42,339 nucleotides of DNA from the NCBI GenBank assembly GCA_001724275.1, contig MEDZ01000028.1:1-42339 (forward strand). The letters run 5' to 3'. This document shows positions 5,808 through 28,314 of this stretch, piece after piece. The translations under genes were made by a program, and so were the position numbers. How positions within the stretch are numbered: position 1 is the stretch's first letter; every line of letters starts with the position of its first letter. Below the pieces are notes generated by a model. It saw only the letters and a program-made list of their open reading frames with translations. It ran no database searches and was not told where the DNA came from. This DNA comes from Gemmatimonadetes bacterium SCN 70-22. Lineage in GTDB: Bacteria > Gemmatimonadota > Gemmatimonadetes > Gemmatimonadales > Gemmatimonadaceae.

Positions 5808-8711
<2,904 letters not shown>

Positions 8712-8719
8712 AGATCCCG

Positions 8720-8749
8720 AATATTGACCGAAGGCCGGGCGCGCTTCAA
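8720..8749 (-). promoter_or_regulatory. candidate uvrA promoter
   Basis: Read on the minus strand: −35 TTGAAG (8749–8744), an 18-base spacer, −10 AATATT (8725–8720), directly upstream of the uvrA ATG at 8711. The AT-rich −10 stands out in GC-rich sequence. The leader would be very short. The assignment is tentative because only 4 of 6 bases match the consensus in each box. Confidence 0.35.
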
Positions 8750-8848
8750 GGCTGGCAGCTGGCGCGACCCGCGTGACTTCCGCTACCTCTGCGCTGTCCC
8801 TGCTGGGGCGGCGTGCCCCGGCCACCGCCCCCCGGACCAGTCGAATCC

Positions 8849-9187
8849 ATGCCCCACACCGATGCCGTCGTCGTGATGACGACCGTGGCCTCCCCCGACG
8901 AGGGGGCAACGCTCGTGCGTGCCCTCCTCGAGCGCCGCCTGATAGCCTGCGGCACCCTCCTCCCCGGCTCCCGGTCGCTGTACCGGTGGGAGGGGAGAAT
9001 CGCCGACGAGCAGGAGACCGTCATCCTGATGAAGACCCGCTCCGCGGTCCTGCACGCGCTGGAGCGGGCCTTCGCCGAGTTGCACCCGTACAAGGTGCCC
9101 GAGCTGCTCGCCCTCGAGGTGCAGTGGGGACTCGAGAAGTACGTGAACTGGATCAACGACGAGACCTCGATGGCCCTCCTGTCATGA
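8849..9187 (+). CDS. cutA: CutA1 divalent-cation tolerance protein
   Basis: A 112-residue protein with the full CutA pattern: an N-terminal [20 protein letters not shown] strand-helix, [18 protein letters not shown] in the middle, and [15 protein letters not shown] near the end. CutA proteins are very stable ferredoxin-like trimers linked to copper tolerance and protein folding; their exact job is unclear. The start is placed at 8849 (MPHTDAV) because the 12 preceding in-frame residues are Pro-rich and not conserved. The gene is divergent from uvrA. Its TGA overlaps the ATG of the next gene (ATGA), which makes it the first gene of a coupled four-gene operon. Confidence 0.93.
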
Positions 9188-10731: not shown

Positions 10732-11486
10732 TCGAACTCACCGGACTCACCAAGAAGTACGGCAACTTCACGGCCGTCGACGCGATCGACCTCTTCGTCC
10801 CGAAGGGAGAGCTGTTCGGCTTCCTCGGGCCGAACGGCGCCGGCAAGACGACGACGCTCCGGATGATCGCCGGGATCCTCCGTCCCACGGCGGGGAGCGT
10901 GCGCATTGCCGGGTTGGACCTGGCCGCCGACCCGATGGCGGCCAAGGCGAAGCTCGGCTTCATTCCGGATCGCCCGTTCATATACGAGAAGCTGACGGGG
11001 ATGGAGTTCCTGCGCTTCGTCGCGGGGCTGTTTCGCGAGGACGGCGCCAGGGTCGAGCAGCGCGCGCGCGAGCTGCTGGCGCTCTTCGACCTCGAGGACT
11101 GGCGCGACGAGCTCGTGGAGTCGTACTCGCACGGCATGCGCCAGAAACTGATCATTTCCAGCGCCTTCGTGCACCGCCCGGAGGTGATCGTCGTCGACGA
11201 GCCGATGGTGGGGCTCGATCCGAAGGCGGCGAGGACGCTGAAGGACCTGTTCCGTGAATACACCCGCCGCGGGCACACGATCATGATGTCGACGCACACG
11301 CTCGAGGTGGCGCAGGCGATGTGCGACCGGATCGGGATCATCCAGAAGGGGCGCATCCGCGCCTGCGGGACGATGGACGACCTGCGACGGCACGCGGAGC
11401 GCGGCGATGAGGGGCTGGAGGAGATCTTCCTGCGGCTGACGGGCGAGAACGCGGTGCGGGGGCTCGTGGAGGTCCTCGATGCCTGA
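10728..11486 (+). CDS. ABC transporter ATP-binding protein (ABC-2 type)
   Basis: A 252-residue nucleotide-binding subunit: Walker A GPNGAGKTTT (34–43), signature SHGMRQK (134–140) in the form common to ABC-2/DrrA-type exporters, Walker B VIVVDEP (153–159) with E158, and switch histidine H190. It powers export by the membrane subunit encoded next. Its ATG overlaps the stop of the transglutaminase-like gene (ATGA), and its last 8 bases overlap the permease start (ATGCCTGA). The coupling implies fixed stoichiometry. The substrate is unknown. Confidence 0.95.
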   Translation: MIELTGLTKKYGNFTAVDAIDLFVPKGELFGFLGPNGAGKTTTLRMIAGILRPTAGSVRIAGLDLAADPMAAKAKLGFIPDRPFIYEKLTGMEFLRFVAGLFREDGARVEQRARELLALFDLEDWRDELVESYSHGMRQKLIISSAFVHRPEVIVVDEPMVGLDPKAARTLKDLFREYTRRGHTIMMSTHTLEVAQAMCDRIGIIQKGRIRACGTMDDLRRHAERGDEGLEEIFLRLTGENAVRGLVEVLDA

Positions 11487-13314
11487 CCATCCGCTCCCGC
11501 CGCTCCCGGCTGCCCCGACGCCGGGGGTGGTGGAGCGACACCGTCTCCTCTCGGGAGCGCACCCGTTGGTGGCAGGTGACGATGCCCGCTACACCCCCGC
11601 CGGAGGACGGGTCGTCCCGGGGGCGGGCAAGGGGAGCACGCTCCTCCATCTCCTCTCCCCCAAGTGGCTCACCGCCCGCGCCCGCGCGGCAACCGCCGAG
11701 ACGGGGCGCGCCGCGCGCTACGCGCTTCTCGGGGTCATCGGGCTGGGATTCTGGGCCTTCGCCTTCGGCGCGCTCTACCGGGTGCTGGCCTACTTCAAGG
11801 GCGTCGAGGAGATCGGGGCGCTGCTCGCGGGGAAGCTCCTCGGGATCCTCCTCCTTTCGTTCGTCTCGATCCTCCTGCTCTCGAACATCATCACGTCGCT
11901 GTCCAGCTTCTTCCTCGCCCGCGACCTCGACCTGCTCGTCGCGGCACCGGTGGACTGGCTCACGCTGTATGGCGCGAAGCTGCTCGAGACGATGGTGCAC
12001 TCGAGCTGGATGGTGGTGCTCCTCGCCATCCCGATGCTGAGCGCGTATGGAATCGCGTACCAGGGCGGGCCGCTCTTCCCGCTGGTGGCGCTGGTGGCGT
12101 TCGTCCCGTTCCTCATCATCCCCTCGGTGGTGGGGAGCGCCATCACGTTGCTCCTGGTCAACATCTTCCCCGCCAGGCGCACCCGCGACATCCTGTCGGT
12201 CATCACGGTGCTTGCCGGGGCGGGCGTGGTGATCCTCTTCCGCCTCATGCGCCCGGAGCAGCTGGCCCGGCCCGAGGGGTTTCGTTCGCTCGTGGAGTTC
12301 ATCGCCATCCTCCGGGGCCCCACCTCGCCGGCGCTCCCCAGCGAATGGATGCAGCGAACGCTGATGGGATGGCTCACCGGGGACTTCGACCCGCTCCCCC
12401 TCTACCTCTTGTGGTCGACGGCCGCCGCGTTCGTCGTGCTCGGGGCGTTGCTGCACCGCCGCCTGTACGCCGTCGGCTTCACCAAGGCGCAGGAGAGCGC
12501 ACAGCAGGGCGTGCGCAGCACGGGGCGCCCGGCAATCGTGGCCCGGCTCCTGGCGCCGTTCGGGACGCTGCGGCGCGAGCTGATCCTCAAGGAGCTCCGC
12601 GTCTTCTTCCGCGACACCACCCAGTGGTCGCAGCTGATCCTGCTGGGGGTGCTGGTGGTCGTGTACGTCGTGAACATCAAGTTCCTGCCGCTCACCGGCG
12701 ACGGGATCACCTTCTTCATCGTGAACCTCATCCCCTTCCTCAACCTCGGGCTGGCGGGATTCGTGCTGGCGTCGGTCGCCGCGCGCTTCCTCTTTCCCGG
12801 CGTGAGCCTGGAGGGACGCTCGTGGTGGCTGCTGCGCTCGAGCCCGATGTCGATGCGCGAGCTGCTGTGGTCGAAGTTCTGGGTCGGGACCGTCCCCCTC
12901 CTCGTCCTCGCGCTCGCGATCGTCACCGTGACCAACACGCTGCTGCAGGTGAGCGCCTTCATGTTCGCCGTCTCGGTGGGATCGATCACGCTCCTCACCT
13001 TCGCCATCGCCGGGCTCGCGGTCGGGTTCGGGACGCTCTACCCGCGCTTCGAGACCGAGAACGCGGCGCAGATCCCCACCTCGTTCGGCGGACTGATGTT
13101 CATGATGACCGCCGTGGTCGTGATCGGGGGGATGATCTTCCTCGAGGCGCGCCCGGTGTACCAGTACCTGTCGGCCCGGCTGTACGGCGCGCCGGAGACG
13201 GTCGATCCGACCCAGATGGTGCTGGGCTTCGGCCTCGCCGCGCTCCTCTGCCTGCTGGCGACGTTCGTCCCGCTGCGCATGGCGCAACGGCGGCTGGAGG
13301 CACTGGAGCGTTAG
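11479..13314 (+). CDS. ABC-2 type exporter permease
   Basis: A 611-residue polytopic membrane protein with two clusters of about six hydrophobic segments each (about residues 80–330 and 380–605), separated by a charged cytoplasmic loop. This is the layout of the large putative ABC-exporter family, rather than the usual 6-helix ABC-2 permease. The first 60 residues are Pro/Gly-rich and soluble. A segment around EGRSWWLLRSSPMSMRELLWSKF in the second half, likely cytosolic, is typical of the family. It partners the preceding ATPase. The stop codon TAG lies within the octamer CGTTAGGC (13309–13316). The gene converges on the zinc-ribbon gene 31 bases away. Confidence 0.88.
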   Translation: MPDHPLPPLPAAPTPGVVERHRLLSGAHPLVAGDDARYTPAGGRVVPGAGKGSTLLHLLSPKWLTARARAATAETGRAARYALLGVIGLGFWAFAFGALYRVLAYFKGVEEIGALLAGKLLGILLLSFVSILLLSNIITSLSSFFLARDLDLLVAAPVDWLTLYGAKLLETMVHSSWMVVLLAIPMLSAYGIAYQGGPLFPLVALVAFVPFLIIPSVVGSAITLLLVNIFPARRTRDILSVITVLAGAGVVILFRLMRPEQLARPEGFRSLVEFIAILRGPTSPALPSEWMQRTLMGWLTGDFDPLPLYLLWSTAAAFVVLGALLHRRLYAVGFTKAQESAQQGVRSTGRPAIVARLLAPFGTLRRELILKELRVFFRDTTQWSQLILLGVLVVVYVVNIKFLPLTGDGITFFIVNLIPFLNLGLAGFVLASVAARFLFPGVSLEGRSWWLLRSSPMSMRELLWSKFWVGTVPLLVLALAIVTVTNTLLQVSAFMFAVSVGSITLLTFAIAGLAVGFGTLYPRFETENAAQIPTSFGGLMFMMTAVVVIGGMIFLEARPVYQYLSARLYGAPETVDPTQMVLGFGLAALLCLLATFVPLRMAQRRLEALER

Positions 13315-13357
13315 GCCACGCGGGGGCCGCGGAAACGGCGCCCGCTCAGGGCGTGGC
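13315..13357. terminator. possible bidirectional hairpin between convergent genes
   Basis: Inverted repeat GCCACGC (13315–13321) / GCGTGGC (13351–13357) enclosing a GC-rich partly self-complementary loop, spanning the gap between the convergent permease and zinc-ribbon genes. There is no T-tract, and the right arm lies inside the zinc-ribbon coding end, so this is weak. Confidence 0.25.
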
Positions 13358-14002
13358 GAGCGCCGCCCCGCAGTGGTCGCAGAAGCGGGCCCCCGGGACG
13401 CGGAGCTCGCGCCCGCACGACGGGCAGCCGCCCAACGCCCGGCCGCAGTGCGAGCAATGGCGCGCCCCGGGCTCGGGGCGCGGCCCGCACGTCGCGCACG
13501 ACACGGCGCGCTGACGCGCTTCGCGCACGAGGCGCTCCGCCATCGCGTCCAGCTCCAACGGCGCATCGCCCGGCGGCGCGGGGATCGACTCGACCGTCCC
13601 GGCGCTGGGAGGGGTGCGGCCGGCCGCAGCTGACGGAGATGCGGTCGCCCCCTTCGCCGCCCGCCGCTCGAGCCCAGCGCGCAGCGTCCGGTAGTCACCC
13701 TCCGACAGCTTCCCCATCGCCAGGTCGAGCTCCAGCTCCTCGAGCTCGGCGGCCAGCGACGCCGGCAGCGCGGCGAATCGGGCGCGTGGAGCGCCGGCCG
13801 GCGCCGGCAGCGCCCCGGCGGGAACGGTCGCGCTCCCCGATTCGGCGTCCGCGGCGCGCCCGGATGCGGCAGATGCGGGATCGGCCGCGGCGCCATGCCG
13901 GCGGGGGCCTTCGCCAGCTGCAGTGTGACGCCGCAGGAAGGGGGCCGCGGCAAAGGCCACCCCTCCGACGACGAGCACGATTCCGATGATGAGCGCAGTC
14001 AT
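13346..14002 (-). CDS. membrane-anchored CcmI-like double zinc-ribbon protein
   Basis: A 218-residue protein with an N-terminal membrane helix (residues 3–22), then an Ala/Pro-rich linker. A short helical segment LEELELDLAMGKLSEGDYRTL (87–107) resembles the repeat just after the membrane helices of CcmI-type cytochrome c biogenesis proteins. At the C-terminus a double zinc ribbon has eight cysteines as four CxxC pairs (169/172, 183/186, 193/196, 208/211). The ATG overlaps the stop of the CcmF-like gene (ATGA), so the two are coupled and probably act together at the membrane. The longer upstream reading is not used because it lies within the neighbouring gene. The function is inferred from context only. 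Confidence 0.8.
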   Translation of the reverse strand: MTALIIGIVLVVGGVAFAAAPFLRRHTAAGEGPRRHGAAADPASAASGRAADAESGSATVPAGALPAPAGAPRARFAALPASLAAELEELELDLAMGKLSEGDYRTLRAGLERRAAKGATASPSAAAGRTPPSAGTVESIPAPPGDAPLELDAMAERLVREARQRAVSCATCGPRPEPGARHCSHCGRALGGCPSCGRELRVPGARFCDHCGAALATP

Positions 14003-15804
14003 TCGCAGGTCTCGCCGGGTGCAACCCCGGCCGGTGATGAGGTGAGGAGCGTCGCCGCCCGGACCAGCGCGGCGAGGACGACCAATACGAGGGCGAGGGT
14101 CCATCCCGCGGCGAACGGCACGACCGTCACCGACAGGCGCACCCCCTCGTCGGCACCGACCTCGGCCAGTTCGACGCGCACCTCCTGCGACCGCGTCCCG
14201 AAGTCCGCCGGGCGCGAGGCCGCCGGGCCCAGCGTCTCGTCACGCGAGTCGACATATTCGCGCAGCTCCACCGACACCAGGGGGAGCGGTCGCCCCCCGC
14301 GGCCCGGCTCGAGGGCGACGGCGAGGACGTGGGCGTTGCGATCGGGGAAGCGGGAGACGCCCTGGTGGGCGAGCGTGACGGGGGGACCGAAGCGCATCGC
14401 CACCTCGCCCTCTCCTCCGCTCGGGATGGCGATGGCGGTGCGGACGGCCCCTCCCTCCCCCGCCGACGCGAGGGCGGCCGCGGCCGTGGCCAGCGAGAGG
14501 ATCGTCAGCGGGAGCGTCGCCACGCCCCCCGTCGCACCCGCCAGCCGCAAGGCGGCCATCCCCGTCGCGAGCCCCGCCAGGACCGACCAGGCGAGGGAGG
14601 GTGATGCGCTCGGCGACAGCCAGGCGCCAAGCGCGCCCCCGGCCACACCGCCGGCCACCACCCATGCGGCGCCGTACCGCGGCGCGCGGACGGCGGTCGC
14701 CTCCGGCCCCGGGACCTCCGCAAGGACCAGGGCCGCGCCGCCCGCGGCGAGAAGCCACTGGGCCGCGGGGACGCTCCAGGCCCCTCCGTCTCCCGCCAGC
14801 CACAACGTGGTCGCCGCTCCGCTCGCGAGGGCAGAGATCGCCAGGAGCGCCAGCACGCGCCGCACGCCGGCCCGCGCGCGAACGGCGCCCCGGGCCGCTC
14901 CCCAGGTGGCCGCACCGAGGGAGGCCACGGCGAAGGCCGCCATCGCCGGCGCCGCCGCGGCGCGCCCGGGAGGGGCGAGGACGACGACGCACATGAGTCC
15001 CAGCGCGCCGAGGGCGGTGCCCAACGCCGCGGCCCCGCCGGCACGCCCCCCGTGCCACGCGAAAACGGTCGCGACGAGCGCCGGGACGAGGGCCCCGCCC
15101 CATGCAGCTGGCGGGGCCGGCGAGGCCTGGGCGCCGGCGACGAACGCCCCGCGCGCCGACGCCCACATCGCCACCCCCAGCAGGGCGAGCGTGCCAAGCG
15201 GCAGCAGCGCCTGCAGGCGCGGTGCGGCCGCGGTGGCTCCCCCCTGCGCCAGGCGGTCGGCCGCCGCCACGCTCGCGACCGTCGCCAGCGCGATGGCCGC
15301 CACCAGCGCCATGCGCCCCGCGACCGACCACGCATTCTGCAGCACGGGCGCCAGGCCGAGCCCCTCGGTGGGAATCCACGGCAGCGTGGTGAACGGTGCG
15401 GCCGCCAGCGAGGCGGCGCACAGCGACATCACGATGGCCCCCGCCACCGCCACACCGAGCGAGCCGCGCGCACGTACCGACGCCAGGCTCCCGGTGACGG
15501 CGACCAGCGCCGCCGTCGGGAGGACCGCGCCGGCCGGGAGGTTCCAGATGGCGGCCAGCCGGTACGGCGCCGGGACGTTTCGCGCGATGCTGCGCGCCAC
15601 GTAGCTGACCGTGACGTCTCCCGACAGGAGCAACGCCAGCATCACGGCGGTGGCGCCGGCGGCCGCCACCGCGCTCGCGACGAGGGCCCGCTGGGCCGAC
15701 CGCCGGGCCGGGTGACCGGGGGACTGCGCGGCAAGACCGCCGATGAAGGCCCAGGCCGCGAACAGCGCGGCCGCCCAACTGGCCAGGAGTCCCGCAGGAG
15801 CCAT
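13999..15804 (-). CDS. CcmF-like membrane protein, degenerate
   Basis: A 601-residue, very hydrophobic Ala/Gly/Leu-rich protein with about 14 membrane segments and a final soluble loop before the last helix, which is the plan of CcmF/NrfE heme lyases. Two regions align recognisably: VSYVARSIARNVPAPYRLAA (67–86), and PTEGLGLAPVLQNAW (145–159), which corresponds to the CcmF EGxGLNPLLQ segment. The tryptophan-rich heme-handling WGGxxGS segment and the HPP motif after the QNAW region are absent (SVAGRMA instead). It is probably not an active heme lyase by itself. It is followed by the coupled CcmI-like zinc-ribbon gene. An alternative is simply an unassigned polytopic membrane protein. Confidence 0.65.
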   Translation of the reverse strand: MAPAGLLASWAAALFAAWAFIGGLAAQSPGHPARRSAQRALVASAVAAAGATAVMLALLLSGDVTVSYVARSIARNVPAPYRLAAIWNLPAGAVLPTAALVAVTGSLASVRARGSLGVAVAGAIVMSLCAASLAAAPFTTLPWIPTEGLGLAPVLQNAWSVAGRMALVAAIALATVASVAAADRLAQGGATAAAPRLQALLPLGTLALLGVAMWASARGAFVAGAQASPAPPAAWGGALVPALVATVFAWHGGRAGGAAALGTALGALGLMCVVVLAPPGRAAAAPAMAAFAVASLGAATWGAARGAVRARAGVRRVLALLAISALASGAATTLWLAGDGGAWSVPAAQWLLAAGGAALVLAEVPGPEATAVRAPRYGAAWVVAGGVAGGALGAWLSPSASPSLAWSVLAGLATGMAALRLAGATGGVATLPLTILSLATAAAALASAGEGGAVRTAIAIPSGGEGEVAMRFGPPVTLAHQGVSRFPDRNAHVLAVALEPGRGGRPLPLVSVELREYVDSRDETLGPAASRPADFGTRSQEVRVELAEVGADEGVRLSVTVVPFAAGWTLALVLVVLAALVRAATLLTSSPAGVAPGETCE

Positions 15805-15836
15805 GTCAGCGGGACGACGAGGGGAGCGCCACGCGC

Positions 15837-16040
15837 TCAGCGATCTCCGTCACGCAGCGCTTCCTGCCGCACTTGCGACATGATGCGCTCCAGCGCCCGC
15901 TCGGCCGTTTCACGATCATTCGGGTCCCACGGCCCCGTCGCCTGCCGATGGATCTCCCGCACCTGCGCGAGCATGTCGTCGATGAGAATCCGGAGCAGGA
16001 CGTTCTTGCGCTGTTCGCGCGGGACGTCGTCGTCGGTCAT
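15837..16040 (-). CDS. small conserved-looking helical protein
   Basis: A 67-residue, highly charged protein predicted to be two helices (VLLRILIDDMLAQVREIHRQ, then NDRETAERALERIMSQVRQEA) with a short GPWDPND link. No family recognised. It sits 32 bases upstream of the CcmF-like gene in the same orientation and may be its first operon partner. Coding is supported by amphipathic spacing and a clean start-to-stop frame, but there is no good Shine-Dalgarno. Confidence 0.55.
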   Translation of the reverse strand: MTDDDVPREQRKNVLLRILIDDMLAQVREIHRQATGPWDPNDRETAERALERIMSQVRQEALRDGDR

Positions 16041-16202: not shown

Positions 16203-17675
16203 TCATGGGCGATCATCGGCCCAGGCGAGCGCCGCGCGCACCGCCCGCTGCCACCCCGCGTACCCCGCCCGCACCTCCGCCGCCGCGCGCTGCGGCGAGA
16301 ACCGCGTGAAGTCATGCGCGGCCAGGAACTCGCCGGGCGAGCGCCACACGCCGGCGGTGACTCCCGCCAGCCCGGCCGCGCCTAACGCCGTGGTCTCGAT
16401 CATCGCCGGGCGCTCGACCACCACCTGCAGGACGTCGGACTGGAACTGCATCAGCCAGTCGTTGGCCGTGGCCCCGCCATCGACGCGGAGACGGTCGAGC
16501 GCCACGCCCTGCTCCCGCACCGCGGCCGCGACATCGGCCGTGCCATAGGCCATGGCCTCCAGCGCCGCCCGGGCCAGGTGGGCGCGCGACGTCCCGCGCG
16601 TGATCCCCACGATGGTGCCGCGCGCCTCCGGGGCCCAGTGCGGGGCACCAAGCCCCACCAACGCCGGGACGAAATACACGCCCCCCGTCGACTCGACCGA
16701 CCGGGCCAACGACTCGGTCTCGGCGGCGCTCTCCACCAGCTGCAACCCGTCGCGGAGCCACTGCACCGCGGCACCGGCCACGAAGATCGCCGCCTCGAGG
16801 GCGTAGACCGGACCACCAGACGCGTCGCACGCGACCGTGGTGAGGAGTCCTCCCCCGCCCTTGGGGCGCGCCGCACCGGCATTGAAGAGGAGAAAGGCAC
16901 CCGTGCCATACGTGTTCTTCCCCTCGCCGCCGGCCCAGCATCCCTGGCCGTACAGCGCCGCCTGCTGGTCGCCCGCGACGCCGCAGATCGGGAGCTCCAC
17001 GCCCAGGTGCTCGCGCCGCGCGACACCGAAGTCGCCTGCCGAACGACGCACGTCCGGGAGCATTGCGAGCGGAACTCCGAAGAGGGCACACAGCTCCGGG
17101 CTCCACGCCCCCGCGTCGATGTCATAGAGCATCGTACGCGAGGCATTGGTGGGATCGGTGGCGTGCACCTCCCCACCCGTGAGGGTCCAGATGAGCCACG
17201 CGTCGATCGTGCCCGCCAGCAGCTCGCCCCGGGCGGCGCGGCGCTCGAGCGCTTCCTCGCGCAACAACCACTCCAGCTTGGTCGCCGAGAAATAGGGATC
17301 CACGACGAGCCCGGTGCGCGTCGCGATCTCCGCCCCCCGTGGCGCGAGCTCGGCGCAACGCGCGGACGTCCGGCGATCCTGCCACACGATGGCGCGCGAC
17401 ACCGGGCGTCCCGTCTCGCGTTCCCAGACGATGATCGTCTCGCGCTGGTTGGTGATGCCGACGGCGACCGGCGTGACACCCGCCATCTCGATGGCCTCGC
17501 GCGCGGCCTCGCACGTCCGCTGGAAGATCTCGACCGCGTCGTGCTCCACCCACCCGGGCCGTGGATAGTGCTGCGTGATCTCGCGGTAGGCACGTGCCGC
17601 AACGGCGCCGTCGGCGCGGACGACGAGGCAGGTGGTGCCGGTCGTCCCCTGGTCGATGGCGAGCACGTGCTTCAT
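16203..17675 (-). CDS. glpK: glycerol kinase
   Basis: FGGY-family kinase making glycerol 3-phosphate from glycerol and ATP. About 490 residues, normal size. The N-terminal ATPase loop AIDQGTTGTT, the glycerol-contacting NQRET motif, IVWQDRRT, the YGTGAFLLFN segment and the GGATANDWLMQFQSD region are all present. The start is set at the ATG whose ATGA overlaps the mtnA stop; a GTG four codons upstream is possible. No glpF or glpD gene lies nearby, so the coupling to mtnA is unusual. The ALGAAG stretch uses a TTA codon in CGTTAGGC (16380–16387). Confidence 0.96.
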   Translation of the reverse strand: MKHVLAIDQGTTGTTCLVVRADGAVAARAYREITQHYPRPGWVEHDAVEIFQRTCEAAREAIEMAGVTPVAVGITNQRETIIVWERETGRPVSRAIVWQDRRTSARCAELAPRGAEIATRTGLVVDPYFSATKLEWLLREEALERRAARGELLAGTIDAWLIWTLTGGEVHATDPTNASRTMLYDIDAGAWSPELCALFGVPLAMLPDVRRSAGDFGVARREHLGVELPICGVAGDQQAALYGQGCWAGGEGKNTYGTGAFLLFNAGAARPKGGGGLLTTVACDASGGPVYALEAAIFVAGAAVQWLRDGLQLVESAAETESLARSVESTGGVYFVPALVGLGAPHWAPEARGTIVGITRGTSRAHLARAALEAMAYGTADVAAAVREQGVALDRLRVDGGATANDWLMQFQSDVLQVVVERPAMIETTALGAAGLAGVTAGVWRSPGEFLAAHDFTRFSPQRAAAEVRAGYAGWQRAVRAALAWADDRP

Positions 17676-18718
17676 GCGCTGGTCCACCAGGCGCTCGTGA
17701 AGTCGTACGGCCCCCGCACGATCCCCCGGTGGGTGATGATCGCCGTCACGAGTGTCGCCGGCGTCACGTCGAAGGCGGGGTTGCAGACCATGACGTCGCT
17801 CGGCGCGGTCGCGGCGCCGAAGGGGCGCACCACTTCCTCGCGCGCGCGCTGCTCGATGACGATCTCGCGTCCGGTCGGCGTCGTCGGATCGATCGTGGAC
17901 GACGGGGCCGCCACGTAGAAGGGGATCCCATGATGGTGCGCGAGGACCGCGACTCCATAGGTCCCGATCTTGTTGGCCACATCACCGTTGGCGGCGATGC
18001 GATCCGCCCCCACGATCACGAGGTCGATCGCCCCGAGCGCCATGAGCGACGCGGCCATGCTGTCGGCGATGACGGTGACCGGGATCCCCGCCCGGGCCAG
18101 CTCCCACGCCGTCAGGCGGCTCCCCTGCAACAGGGGGCGCGTCTCGTCCGCATAGACCACCACCCGGCGCCCGTTCCGCGCCGCGTGGTAGACTGGGGCC
18201 AGCGCCGTCCCGATGCCCCCCGTGGCCAGCGCCCCGGCGTTGCAGTGGGTGAGGACCCGAGCCCCCTCCGGAAGGAGCGGCTCGCCGTGGGCGCCAATGG
18301 CCTCGCACATGGCCCGGTCCTCCTCGAGAATCGCCGTCGCCTCACGCCGCAGCGTGGCGAGGAGGAGCTCGTTGCTCCCGTCCGTCACGTCGGCCAGGCG
18401 CTGCATCCGGTCGACGGCCCAGCCGAGGTTGACGGCGGTGGGTCGCGCCTCGCGGATCTCCGCCGCCACCGCCCGCAAGCGATCGCGAAACGCCCCCGGC
18501 GCCTCTCCGGCATGCGGAGCCAGGGCGGTGACGATCCCCATGGCGCCCGCGATCCCGATGGCTGGCGCCCCGCGGACCGCGAGAGTCCTGATGGCATCGC
18601 GCACCTCGTCCACCGTGCGCAGGTCGCGCTCGGCGAACGTCCCCGGGAGCTGGGTCTGGTCGATGATGCGCACGGCGTCGCCGCCCGGCGACCAGCGCAC
18701 CGCCTGAATGATCTCCAT
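17672..18718 (-). CDS. mtnA: S-methyl-5-thioribose-1-phosphate isomerase
   Basis: An aldose-ketose isomerase of the methionine salvage pathway, converting methylthioribose 1-phosphate to methylthioribulose 1-phosphate. The 348-residue length is typical. Family blocks are visible: VRGAPAIG (48–55), THCNAGALAT (157–166) with catalytic C159, ADETRPLLQGSRLTAWEL (190–207), and VGADRIAANGDVANK (236–250) with catalytic D239. Some homologues act on related ribose 1-phosphates, so substrate specificity is not absolute. It is the first gene of a leftward unit, divergent from the enoyl-CoA hydratase gene, with glpK coupled downstream. Confidence 0.95.
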   Translation of the reverse strand: MEIIQAVRWSPGGDAVRIIDQTQLPGTFAERDLRTVDEVRDAIRTLAVRGAPAIGIAGAMGIVTALAPHAGEAPGAFRDRLRAVAAEIREARPTAVNLGWAVDRMQRLADVTDGSNELLLATLRREATAILEEDRAMCEAIGAHGEPLLPEGARVLTHCNAGALATGGIGTALAPVYHAARNGRRVVVYADETRPLLQGSRLTAWELARAGIPVTVIADSMAASLMALGAIDLVIVGADRIAANGDVANKIGTYGVAVLAHHHGIPFYVAAPSSTIDPTTPTGREIVIEQRAREEVVRPFGAATAPSDVMVCNPAFDVTPATLVTAIITHRGIVRGPYDFTSAWWTSA

Positions 18719-21100: not shown

Positions 21101-23220
<2,120 letters not shown>

Positions 23221-23270
23221 CGATCCCCCCCTCCTCCCCCGAGGGGCCGGAGCCCACGCTCGGCGCCCTG

Positions 23271-23570
23271 GTGACGTCGCTCACGCGGCGAGCCCCCGAC
23301 GCGCTCCTGGTGGTGATGACGGTCACCGGACTCGTGGGAGGAGTGGCACTCGTCCTCCTCGCCCCTGGCGCGTGGCATGCCCTCCCCCCGTTCCTCCTGT
23401 TGGCAGCTGGCGGCGCGTGGGGCATCGCGGCGAAGGAGCGGGGGGACACGAAGAGGCGAGCGCGGGCGCTGACGACGCTGCGCGCGGCGGCGGTCCTGCT
23501 GGGGATCGTTGCCGTGGCGCTGCTCGTGCTTGCCTTCTTCGGCGTCGCACTCGGCACCTGGATCTCGTAG
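23271..23570 (+). CDS. small membrane protein after gyrB
   Basis: About 99 residues from a GTG. It has two or three hydrophobic helices (LLVVMTVTGLVGGVALVLLA; PFLLLAAGGAWGIAA; AAAVLLGIVAVALLVLAFFG) and a basic loop (KERGDTKRRARAL) between the second and third. No family recognised. The frame runs open from inside gyrB, so the start is uncertain; ATG or GTG codons near 23309–23317 are alternatives. It is probably in the gyrB transcript, with no promoter visible between. Confidence 0.5.
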   Translation: MTSLTRRAPDALLVVMTVTGLVGGVALVLLAPGAWHALPPFLLLAAGGAWGIAAKERGDTKRRARALTTLRAAAVLLGIVAVALLVLAFFGVALGTWIS

Positions 23571-24790: not shown

Positions 24791-25119
24791 GGAGTCCTCG
24801 ATGGCGTGATGTGGATGGCGGGCGAGAGCGGCGGGATGGAGCGGCGGGATGGAGCGGCGTCCGCACGATCCCGTTCGGCGGGCGATTGCGACAAGATGTC
24901 GCGCGTGTTTCCCACGGAGAAGGGGGGCGCCATGGGACGGCACGGGGGCGGAGGCGCCCGGGCGCGCGGCGGGCGGGCGCGCGATGGGTGGTCGCGCCGC
25001 GAGGGCGCGGTGGCTGGTCGCGCCGTGGCCGCTCCCGCGATCGTCGACGGCGGCGTATGATTGCCGCGCGCGATGCCACGAGGCATCGCCCTCCCAATTC
25101 CCCAGAGGTACGCGTCTCC
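24791..25119. other. 329-base divergent intergenic region, low complexity
   Basis: No gene seen. It holds a 13-base tandem repeat (24828–24859), the inverted repeat GCGACA–AGA–TGTCGC (24888–24902), two direct copies of TGGTCGCGCCG (24989–24999, 25015–25025), a lone −10-like TATGAT (25056–25061) with no −35, and a Shine-Dalgarno-like AGAGG (about 25104–25108) for the next gene. Promoters for both flanking genes should be here. Confidence 0.45.
24828..24859. repeat. 13-bp tandem repeat (about 2.5 copies)
   Basis: GCGGCGGGATGGA is repeated at 24828–24840 and 24841–24853, followed by a partial copy GCGGCG, just upstream of the leftward small membrane gene. Confidence 0.75.
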
Positions 25120-28100
25120 ATGACTCCTCGCGCCACCTGCCGCGGCCGACGCACGGCGTCGATCCTGGTCCTCGCCCTCCTCGGCGCCACCCTGCCGGCG
25201 GCTGCCCAGGTGCAACGCGCCGCACCGCCGGCGATGGGCGGCTCCATTGCCGAGTCCACCTTCGCCGGGCTCGCCTGGCGCAACATCGGCCCGGCCAACA
25301 TGTCGGGGCGCATGGCCGACATCGAGGGGGTCGCCGGCGACCCGGCGATCCTGTACGCCGGGAGTGCCTCGGGCGGCGTCTGGAAGTCCATCAACGGCGG
25401 GACGAGCTGGACCCCGGTCTTCGACAGGGAGCCGGTGCAGTCGATCGGCGACCTCGCCGTCGATCCGACGAACCACGAGGTGGTATACGTGGGGACGGGT
25501 GAGGGGAACGTCCGCAACTCGGTCTCGTTCGGCAATGGGATCTACCGCACCACCGATGGCGGGCGCACGTGGAAGCACCTGGGGCTCGCCGACACGCGGC
25601 ACATCCCGCGCGTGGTGATCCACCCCAGGGATCCGCGCAAGGTGTACGTGGCGGCGATCGGCCACGCGTTCGGCCCCAACGCGGAGCGCGGCGTCTTCAT
25701 GAGCGAGGACGGGGGCGACAGCTGGAAGCCGGTGCTGCACACCGACGACCGGCACGGCGCCTCGGACCTCGACATCGATCCGCAGAATCCCAACATCCTC
25801 TACGCGGGGATGTGGCATTTCGACCGCAAGCAGTGGACGTTCCGCTCCGGCGACACGCTCGGTGGCGTGTACCGCTCCACCGATGGCGGGCGCTCGTGGC
25901 AGAAGATGACCAAGGGGCTCCCGAAGCTGATGGGGCGCATCGGGATCAAGGTCGCGCCGTCGTCGCCGAACGTGGTCTACGTGGTGGCCGAGACGAAGGA
26001 GGGGTACGTCTTCCGCTCCGACGACCACGGCGAGAGCTGGCGCAAGGTGAGCGACAACGCCCACACGCTCGGGCGCGGCTTCTACTATGCGGACCTGCGG
26101 GTGGACCCGCAGAATCCCGACCGCGTGTATACGTTAGGCATGTCGTACATGGTGTCGATCGACGGCGGGCTGACCTTCAAGCCGATGACCGGGAACTTCC
26201 ACGGCGACCACCAGACGATGTGGATCGACCCGTCCAACCCGAAGCGCCTGTTGATGGGGGACGACGGGGGACTCAACGTCTCGTACGACCAGGGGAAGAC
26301 GTGGGAGTGGTTCCAGAACCTCCCGGTGGGACAGTTCTACCAGCTCAGTTACGACATGCGCGAGCCGTTCTACCACGTGGCCGGCGGGCTGCAGGACAAC
26401 GGCGTCTGGACCGGCCCGTCGCGCACGCGCGGGGCCGCCGTGCTGGCCAGCGACTGGCGCTTCATCCAGAACGGCGACGGCTACTACGCGGTGTCGCACC
26501 CGGACAACCCGGACCTCTTCCTGAGCGACTACCAGGCCGGGGGGATCCAGGCGACCAACCTGCGCACCTACGAGCAGCGGGAGGCGTCGCCACAGGTGAA
26601 GCGCATGGACGGTTATGCGGCGGACTCCAACGCGGTGCGCTTCAACTGGAACGCGCCCATCGTGCAGTCGCCGCACGACCGGAAGGTCGTCTATTTCGCC
26701 GGCAACATCGTGTACCGCTCCAGCGACTGGGGGAAGACCTGGACGGCGCTGTCCGGCGACCTCTCGAAGAACGACCGGTCAAGGCAGGGCGACGCCGGCG
26801 GGCCGATCCTGAAGGAGAACACCGTCGCCGAGTACTACGGCAACGTGTATTCGCTCGCCGAATCGCCGGCGCAGCCGGGGGTGCTCTGGGCGGGGACCGA
26901 CGACGGCAACCTGCAGGTGACGCGGGACGACGGGAAGACATGGGTCAACGTGGCGCCTAACGTGGGCGGAGTCGGCCCCGACGCCGTGGTGAGCGGCGTC
27001 GAGCCATCGCGCACGGCGGCGGGGACGGCGTATGCCGCCTTCGAGCGCCACATGATGGACGACTACCGGCCCTACGTCTTCAAGACGACCGATTTCGGGC
27101 GCACGTGGAGCAACATCACCGGGAACCTCCCGGCCAACGCGTACGTGCAGGTGATCCGCGAGGATCCCCGGAATCCCAACCTGCTGTACGCGGGGACGGA
27201 GCTCGGGCTCTACGTGTCGTGGACCGGCGGGACCAGCTGGACGCGGTTGCACCTGAAGAATCTCCCGTCGGTCGCCGTGCACGAGGTGCTGGTGCATCCG
27301 CGCGAGAACGACCTGATCCTGGCCACGCATGGCAGGGCGATCTGGATCCTGGACGACGCCGCGCCGGTGCAGCAGATGTCGGCGCAGGTGGCGGCGAAGG
27401 CGTCGCACCTCTTCCCGGTGCGCACGGCCACCCGCTACAACCAGGGGGACCAGCAGTGGAACTGGGGAAACAAGCAGTTCCGCGGCCAGAACGCGCCCTA
27501 TGGCGCGATCATCTCCTACTGGCTGGGGCAGAAGCCGGCAGCCGACTCGCTGCTCAAGCTCGAGATCCTCAGGGACGGTGCGGTGATCCGGACCCTCAAG
27601 CGCCCGGGCACCGACGCCGGCTTCAACCGCGTGACGTGGGACCTGCGCATGGATGCGCCCAAGGTGCTGAGCGACATGCCGCCCGACAGCGCCGATCCCT
27701 CGGACTGGCGTGCGCGCCCGATGGGGCCGCAGGTCCTGCCCGGACAGTACGTGGTGCGGCTGACGGTCGCCGGTGCCTCGCAGGAGCAGTCGCTGACGGT
27801 GCGCATGGATCCCAGCGCCGAGGTCACCGAGGGTGAGCCCCGCCAGCAATTCGAGCAGGCGACACGCCTCAACACCGTCATCGCCTCGCTGATCGACACC
27901 GAACGCAACCTCGTCGCCTTCAAGGGGGAGATCGAGGAGCGCCGGGCCAGCGGGACCGAGATGCGCGGCGACGCCGCCCGGGACATGGCGACGGCAGCCG
28001 GCGAGGAGATCGTCAAGCTGGACAGCGTCCGCCTGCAGCTGACGAGACCGCGCAGCGACGTGGTCCCCTTCTATTCCGAGGGGCCGCGCCCGCTCGAGCG

Positions 28101-28314
28101 CGCGATGTCGCTCATGGGGAGCATCGACAACGGCCTCACCCCCGTCATCGCCGCCCAGCGCGAGTACATGGGCGACGTGCGCCGCGACGCCCAGACGGTG
28201 ATCGACATGGTGGAGCGGCAGGTCAATGCCAGCGTGCAGCGGATGAACCCGATTCTCCGGGCGCTGGGCCTCCCGGAGTTGGTGCCGCCGCCGAAGAAGA
28301 CGACGGCCATGTGA
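25120..28314 (+). CDS. secreted Asp-box / sortilin (VPS10)-like beta-propeller protein
   Basis: A 1064-residue exported protein. The signal peptide is residues 1–29 (hydrophobic SILVLALLGATLPAAA, then Q). The next roughly 750 residues carry many Asp-box (BNR) repeats of the SxDxGxxW type: TTDGGRTW, SEDGGDSW, STDGGRSW, SDDHGESW, SSDWGKTW, TRDDGKTW, TTDFGRTW. These are typical of the sortilin/VPS10-like and WD40/BNR glycosyl-hydrolase-like families. A beta-sandwich-like part (about 770–890) and a helical tail (about 895–1064) follow. It is often annotated as a glycosyl hydrolase, but no catalytic residues can be assigned here; binding or peptidase-accessory roles are equally possible. Two CGTTAGGC words (one in each orientation) occur within it. 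Confidence 0.9.
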   Translation: MTPRATCRGRRTASILVLALLGATLPAAAQVQRAAPPAMGGSIAESTFAGLAWRNIGPANMSGRMADIEGVAGDPAILYAGSASGGVWKSINGGTSWTPVFDREPVQSIGDLAVDPTNHEVVYVGTGEGNVRNSVSFGNGIYRTTDGGRTWKHLGLADTRHIPRVVIHPRDPRKVYVAAIGHAFGPNAERGVFMSEDGGDSWKPVLHTDDRHGASDLDIDPQNPNILYAGMWHFDRKQWTFRSGDTLGGVYRSTDGGRSWQKMTKGLPKLMGRIGIKVAPSSPNVVYVVAETKEGYVFRSDDHGESWRKVSDNAHTLGRGFYYADLRVDPQNPDRVYTLGMSYMVSIDGGLTFKPMTGNFHGDHQTMWIDPSNPKRLLMGDDGGLNVSYDQGKTWEWFQNLPVGQFYQLSYDMREPFYHVAGGLQDNGVWTGPSRTRGAAVLASDWRFIQNGDGYYAVSHPDNPDLFLSDYQAGGIQATNLRTYEQREASPQVKRMDGYAADSNAVRFNWNAPIVQSPHDRKVVYFAGNIVYRSSDWGKTWTALSGDLSKNDRSRQGDAGGPILKENTVAEYYGNVYSLAESPAQPGVLWAGTDDGNLQVTRDDGKTWVNVAPNVGGVGPDAVVSGVEPSRTAAGTAYAAFERHMMDDYRPYVFKTTDFGRTWSNITGNLPANAYVQVIREDPRNPNLLYAGTELGLYVSWTGGTSWTRLHLKNLPSVAVHEVLVHPRENDLILATHGRAIWILDDAAPVQQMSAQVAAKASHLFPVRTATRYNQGDQQWNWGNKQFRGQNAPYGAIISYWLGQKPAADSLLKLEILRDGAVIRTLKRPGTDAGFNRVTWDLRMDAPKVLSDMPPDSADPSDWRARPMGPQVLPGQYVVRLTVAGASQEQSLTVRMDPSAEVTEGEPRQQFEQATRLNTVIASLIDTERNLVAFKGEIEERRASGTEMRGDAARDMATAAGEEIVKLDSVRLQLTRPRSDVVPFYSEGPRPLERAMSLMGSIDNGLTPVIAAQREYMGDVRRDAQTVIDMVERQVNASVQRMNPILRALGLPELVPPPKKTTAM

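Follow-up and report, generated by a model that had tools for sequence, protein, structure and literature searches.

A heme-ligand-free, CcmF-derived membrane protein retained under selection at an ancestral cytochrome c maturation locus of Gemmatimonadota

CcmF has been studied as a heme machine. A stretch of 42,339 nucleotides of Gemmatimonadetes bacterium SCN 70-22 (assembly GCA_001724275.1, contig MEDZ01000028.1, positions 1 to 42,339), referred to as the window, encodes on its minus strand a 601-residue membrane protein (13999..15804) that almost certainly derives from CcmF and is termed eroded type-A CcmF on the basis of profile alignment, heme-ligand mapping and synteny. Type A denotes the cytochrome c maturation (ccm) locus at the glpK/ABC-transporter place, and type B a second ccm cluster. 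Among the closest described systems is the Thermus thermophilus CcmF of System I (6ZMQ), with which the window protein shares full-length profile similarity, the N-terminal loops, the C-terminal extracytoplasmic domain and an adjoining CcmI-like gene. In contrast to Thermus CcmF, it lacks P-His1 and P-His2, TM-His1 and TM-His2 and the WWD motif, as these features are named in passages of PMC10746174 and PMC10663686, and its locus lacks ccmE and ccmH.

NrfE and the CcmF2 of anaerobic methanotrophic (ANME) archaea are likewise additional CcmF-family proteins that accompany a complete system. Passages of PMC9012536 describe NrfE as needed for a modified heme-binding site, whereas the window protein has no ligands; the divergent ANME paralogues are thought there to serve large cytochromes. 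Shewanella oneidensis likewise carries a second ccmF locus (ccmF2-nrfF-SO0476) beside its complete one, described as dispensable for cytochrome c maturation in parts of PMC3769277, and plants and algae have repeatedly swapped whole cytochrome c maturation systems, according to PMC10879542. The neighbouring protein resembles CcmI (TIGR03142) in its N-terminal membrane helix and ELDxAxGKLSExDYxxL segment, but differs in scoring below the model cut-off, matching no TPR model and carrying a double zinc ribbon. We know of no erosion series for the Shewanella ccmF2, and the titles and abstract openings of the open PMC papers listed in our searches yielded no description of an eroded, heme-free CcmF or of a zinc-ribbon CcmI.

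The window protein alone matched no model in Pfam or NCBIfam scans. An earlier sequence-only reading had proposed a degenerate CcmF-like protein and suggested a sensitive profile comparison as a check; the similarity to CcmF, as judged from sequence, is far beyond chance. Three members of the window's genus align with eight intact CcmFs over 565 columns (hhalign probability 99.5, E 9.9e-23). BLASTP against the intact CcmF of a relative returns two separate blocks, residues 1-157 (E 5e-16) and 472-560 (E 1e-11), and tblastn matches to CcmF loci of other genera reach E 3.8e-14. When the PDB was searched with a profile of 11 eroded proteins, whose strength is partly due to its less eroded members, Thermus CcmF (6zmq) was the sole match (E 7.4e-47); the three-member genus profile (A5) matched no PDB chain. 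Intermediates at the same locus form a graded series, and some of them exceed the Pfam CcmF cut-offs. In a class-wide search 203 of 295 genomes match, mainly via ordinary CcmF, with near-full-length matches at E < 1e-80 confined to the window's genus (G156, 47%; G295, 63% in the genus search). A narrower profile applied to named genomes recovers one locus (L083), from the metagenome-assembled 'Gemmatimonadetes bacterium isolate clean1220', which is identical to the G295 contig over the stretch compared. A crude hydropathy count gives 11 membrane helices in the window protein and 11-13 in eight intact type-A relatives, the criterion for CcmF being 15. The CcmF origin of the protein and its loss of heme sites can be held with near certainty.

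The motifs HPP, FLHS, SVH and YGGYxxH, which we take to mark the ligand histidines, served to place these on the alignment. At the four ligand columns, all eight intact type-A proteins and the window genome's own type-B CcmF read HHHH, while the window protein reads G G S S: glycine and serine at P-His1/P-His2, and glycine and serine at the TM-His1/TM-His2 columns of the b-heme. Where the P-His1/HPP motif has been lost (residues 161-166; 15307..15324, minus strand) the sequence reads VAGRMA, WNLPAGAV takes the place of the tryptophan-rich WGGxxGS, and the WWD motif WGGYWAWDPVEN of CcmF aligns with WGG--ALVPALV. The lack of HPP and of WGGxxGS had been read correctly from the sequence, and the histidine mapping proposed with it finds none of the four ligands present. 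Independently of any alignment, the protein has four histidines in total (H31, H251, H480 and H492), none at a ligand column. Because the window's genus has lost every one of the four heme histidines as well as the WWD motif, the protein should not be a heme lyase and, as far as its sequence tells, cannot bind either of the CcmF hemes by the established mode. In a larger set, HHHH is found in 20 of 21 intact type-A and 29 of 30 type-B proteins, both exceptions being cut at contig ends. Nine of 26 eroded proteins keep none of the four ligands (window, G295, G156, G229, G069, G116, G063, G238 and G148; G numbers are genomes), and one, the shortened protein of G160, retains all four. G284, whose gene is split across two contigs, is excluded from these 26-protein tables. 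As a separate observation, H480 and H492 (14329-14367, minus strand) lie in the C-terminal extracytoplasmic domain and are kept in all three genus members; H480 stands where SQG has its serine, and the pair may form a new metal site.

Purifying selection still acts on the eroded gene, most strongly on a pair of N-terminal loops and on the extracytoplasmic domain at the C-terminus. None of the 26 eroded reading frames is interrupted, and their third-position guanine-cytosine (GC) content is of the coding type. By the Nei-Gojobori method (NG86), the ratio of nonsynonymous to synonymous substitution (omega) is 0.32 between window and G295 (62% identity), 0.51 between window and G156, 0.11 for G121-G150 and 0.34 for G102-G184, and spans 0.11-0.52 across all 23 eroded pairs computed. 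Simulated neutral evolution of the same gene (480 runs) gives median values of 1.08-1.26 and a lowest value of 0.85. With 26 of 26 frames open and an omega of 0.32 against this neutral minimum, the gene is not a plain pseudogene. It is very probably selected and hence has some function.

This constraint is distributed unevenly. The first conserved loop (residues 62-93; 15526..15621, minus strand), which includes WNLPAGAV, has an omega of 0.21 against G295 and 0.17 against G156. The second (residues 136-157, APFTTLPWIPTEGLGLAPVLQN; 15334..15399, minus strand), which precedes HPP in CcmF, gives 0.12 and 0.15 over residues 140-157, and the conserved core of the C-terminal extracytoplasmic domain (residues 473-523, HQGVSRF...REYVDSRD; 14236..14388, minus strand) gives 0.16 and 0.28. 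The rest of the N-terminus to residue 161 stands at 0.15 against G295 but 0.51 against G156, and residues 162-460 at 0.41 in the window-G295 pair. Among positions invariant in intact type-A proteins, the eroded proteins keep 62% in residues 62-93, 57% in 136-157 and 60% in 473-523, against 32% elsewhere. The segments singled out by the sequence-only reading, 67-86 and 145-159, fall in the two N-terminal loops; it did not include the C-terminal segment. All three pieces probably face the periplasm, given that in CcmF P-His1 follows the second loop and the C-terminal domain is periplasmic.

By descent, the window gene is the ccmF of an ancestral ccm locus that stood between glpK and the ABC transporter. 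In Gemmatimonadota relatives, intact type-A loci carry ccmE-ccmF-ccmH-ccmI, the last with a zinc ribbon, often beside glpK and/or the ABC transporter; the window locus corresponds to this place, but without ccmE and ccmH. Upstream on the same strand lies the glycerol kinase gene glpK (16203..17687, minus strand; our own assignment), and downstream a convergent gene for an ABC transporter membrane protein (11479..13314, plus strand; PF16949, 387.8 bits), both serving as syntenic anchors in the locus comparison. The minus-strand order between them, namely a 67-residue gene, the 601-residue membrane protein and a 218-residue zinc-ribbon protein, is what remained of the ancestral arrangement once ccmE and ccmH had been lost. 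Eroded type-A loci yielded neither of these two genes.

A separate ccm locus, of the kind that the earlier reading had proposed to seek, lies on contig C7 of the window genome and comprises ccmA, B, C, E, F, G and H; ccmC and ccmF were called by PF01578, CcmE by PF03100 and CcmH by PF03918, and A, B and G by position and sequence. CcmE and CcmH copies above cut-off are confined to this contig in the window genome, and no CcmI is among the genes identified beside its type-B cluster. Type-A and type-B CcmF fall on opposite sides of a fully supported branch. The type-B tree conflicts in places with the host-marker tree (for example, the type-B protein of G148, B_G148, groups with genus g13 and G016), and this disagreement suggests horizontal movement of the type-B cluster. 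A 554-residue open reading frame (ORF) with many CxxCH motifs, a multiheme cytochrome, follows ccmH on contig C7 (L003:10759-12423) and hints that the type-B cluster serves multiheme cytochromes. G238 carries two different type-B ccm clusters (G238:C42 and G238:C124).

Among 75 genomes of the family, presumably Gemmatimonadaceae, surveyed from the class sample, erosion goes with the presence of type B. The 30 genomes with type B comprise 25 that have an eroded type-A CcmF, two that lack it (G166 and G277) and three in which it is intact (G016, G033 and G118, all of genus g3); the type-A locus of G033 shows no ccmE or ccmH match. Of the 45 without type B, 44 have a type-A CcmF that counts as intact from its PF01578 score, including three truncated at contig ends, and one (G203) has an eroded copy. 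Eroded or lost copies thus occur in 27 of 30 genomes with type B and 1 of 45 without (Fisher p 6e-16, a test that ignores kinship). Type B is taken as present in G164 from its CcmC and CcmE, its type-B CcmF lying beyond the contig end, and G188 and G075, without a CcmF or window-protein match at E 1e-3, are counted as eroded by place, coding signature and likeness to congeners.

Erosion has more than one origin. In a tree of 47 genomes built on GlpK+ABCp, in which several rows cover under half of the columns, well-supported branches force at least six changes of the eroded label, and the approximately unbiased (AU) test rejects placing the eroded or lost genomes in one clade (p 0.0001). Partial ligand sets include HHHQ in G121 and G150, HHHY in G164, HYHC in G184, HYHY in G102 and QHLH in G054, and the eroded proteins of genus g11 mainly keep P-His2. 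A single decay path in which one ligand always goes first was considered and rejected, as the order of ligand loss varies by lineage.

The partner encoded downstream is a CcmI-like zinc-ribbon protein of 218 residues (13346..14002, minus strand). Its ORF is listed from 14104, but the start is most likely at 14002 (MTALIIG...), in an ATGA overlap with the stop of the CcmF-like gene; this start is shared by the relatives G295 and G156. One membrane helix (13937..13996; the single helix in a hydropathy count) is accompanied by a CcmI-like segment (LELDLAMGKLSEGDYRTL; 13619..13750; TIGR03142, 17.7 bits, below the cut-off of 29.3) and a double zinc ribbon with eight cysteines in four CxxC motifs (13367..13498; PF12773, 30.6 bits, above the cut-off of 27.3), all on the minus strand. 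Three orthologues from intact type-A loci fare similarly against TIGR03142, two scoring below cut-off and one giving no match. The Pfam scan matched no TPR model in the window's protein; a C-terminal TPR domain is a feature of CcmI. The combination of helix, segment and eight zinc-ribbon cysteines is as the sequence-only reading had it. It is not special to the degenerate locus, however, since the zinc-ribbon CcmI is present in all eight intact type-A loci checked and in G078. The 67-residue charged helical protein (15837..16040, minus strand), recognised by a profile search over loci, is also an ancestral neighbour, its gene lying upstream of ccmE in the intact loci of G209 and G286.

Across the eroded or lost set, CcmI is full-length in genus g1, G215, G166 and G277, the last two retaining it without CcmF, and is cut to the helix and one zinc ribbon in G184, G164, G102, G245, G203 and G284. 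It was not found in others such as G069, G116 and G121, among which a CcmF remnant remains (for example, in G069). At loci L037, L038, L039, L057, L079 and L080 the CcmI segment is deleted downstream of the CcmF remnant, leaving the helix and one zinc ribbon. A fixed three-gene module was rejected, as CcmF remnant, CcmI and 67-residue gene do not stay together across eroded genomes. The proposal of a repurposed cytochrome-maturation module thus stands as to ancestry, heme loss, a separate ccm locus and continued selection on the CcmF-like protein, which makes repurposing possible, and is only partly right as to a module, for the genes part ways.

The explanation that we favour, tentatively and at somewhat less than even confidence, is that the window protein is a heme-free pseudo-lyase, retained by selection for a putative docking or assembly role. 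As a membrane scaffold it may still dock a partner at its periplasmic face, either apocytochrome c or type-B CcmF/CcmH, and would thereby help the type-B machine without touching heme; the CcmI-like protein, its zinc ribbon probably cytosolic because the single helix is followed by arginines, would be the partner at the inner face. Partner functions of CcmF, involving CcmE, CcmH and apocytochrome, are described in passages of PMC10746174, and by our own mapping the conserved pieces belong to the face at which CcmF is expected to meet these three. A role in docking or assembly for the type-B machine is favoured because this face is preserved and no CcmI was identified beside the type-B cluster. 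That the job concerns c-type cytochromes in particular is a looser conjecture, and it is with similar reserve that we suggest a general pattern, in which CcmF would repeatedly yield heme-free pseudo-lyases in several independent lineages of this one family: a second ccm cluster, once acquired, would have allowed the older CcmF to shed its heme sites, with its periplasmic face kept for a heme-independent job such as docking apocytochromes or the new lyase.

Several observations weigh against the pseudo-lyase explanation. An independent-pair test on the link between erosion and type B gives 6 pairs, of which 3 agree, 0 oppose and 3 show no difference (p 0.25). G203 has an eroded copy but no type-B CcmF, no CcmE and no CcmH above cut-off. 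CcmI is often lost where the CcmF remnant stays, and this frequent separation speaks against an obligate pair. An AlphaFold2 prediction of the window protein with one relative gave an unusable model (predicted local distance difference test score, pLDDT, 37.8). Type-A CcmF has been lost outright in the two type-B genomes G166 and G277. Finally, GlpK and ABCp have omega values of 0.03-0.18 in the same eroded pairs, and in the window's genus eroded CcmF stands two to four times higher, so its constraint is relaxed; intact CcmF pairs, at 0.08-0.27, are similar to their neighbours.

The last two points also favour a serious rival, which we consider somewhat less likely: a relic on its way out, made useless when type B took over, drifting and still unbroken. 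That neither ccmE nor ccmH was found at the eroded loci and that lineages differ in the ligands lost fit such decay as well. A drifting relic, however, accords poorly with 26 open frames that keep their third-position GC bias, with an omega of 0.11-0.52 in all 23 eroded pairs when neutral simulations stay at or above 0.85, and with the unevenness of omega within one gene, 0.41 in the middle and 0.12-0.21 in the conserved loops.

A specialised second heme lyase with a rebuilt heme site, as NrfE is for NrfA, would have precedent in the cytochrome-dedicated CcmF paralogues known or proposed (NrfE and ANME CcmF2, in passages of PMC9012536). The conserved H480 and H492 could contribute to such a site, and G121, G150 and G160 retain three or four ligands at this locus. 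We judge this improbable: the window protein has no more than four histidines, all of them away from the ligand columns, and lacks the WWD motif, and its locus has neither ccmE nor ccmH. There is likewise only a slight prospect that the protein works for glycerol metabolism or for the convergent ABC transporter and not for cytochromes. The transporter and glpK adjoin the gene in many relatives, but they also stand beside intact ccm loci, which makes the linkage older than the erosion; the transporter lies on the opposite strand, and no glpK was found in the stretches examined from g11 and g13 genomes. That the protein is not CcmF at all, and is instead an alanine-rich polytopic membrane protein of chance similarity, would suit the missing Pfam and NCBIfam matches and the genus-only profile without a PDB match, but is scarcely credible beside the two BLASTP blocks, the hhalign result, the graded intermediates and the conserved synteny.

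One syntenic place thus offers a series of CcmFs from intact through partial to ligand-free, with extracytoplasmic parts still selected. With these natural mutants one can ask what parts of CcmF are important independently of heme, and whether a docking component that works without heme is required by System I. If the pseudo-lyase explanation is true, such proteins would reveal a role of CcmF that has so far not been told apart from heme. Genes labelled CcmF or NrfE by position or weak similarity may, by the same token, not be lyases.

Elsewhere in the window, the ORF preceding the PF16949 membrane part encodes the ABC transporter ATPase (PF00005). Two long ORFs, at 6774-8873 (700 residues) and 21219-23567 (783 residues), have no Pfam match at E 1e-5, and positions 24811-28311 encode a 1167-residue protein with Sortilin-Vps10 and BNR repeats by Pfam.

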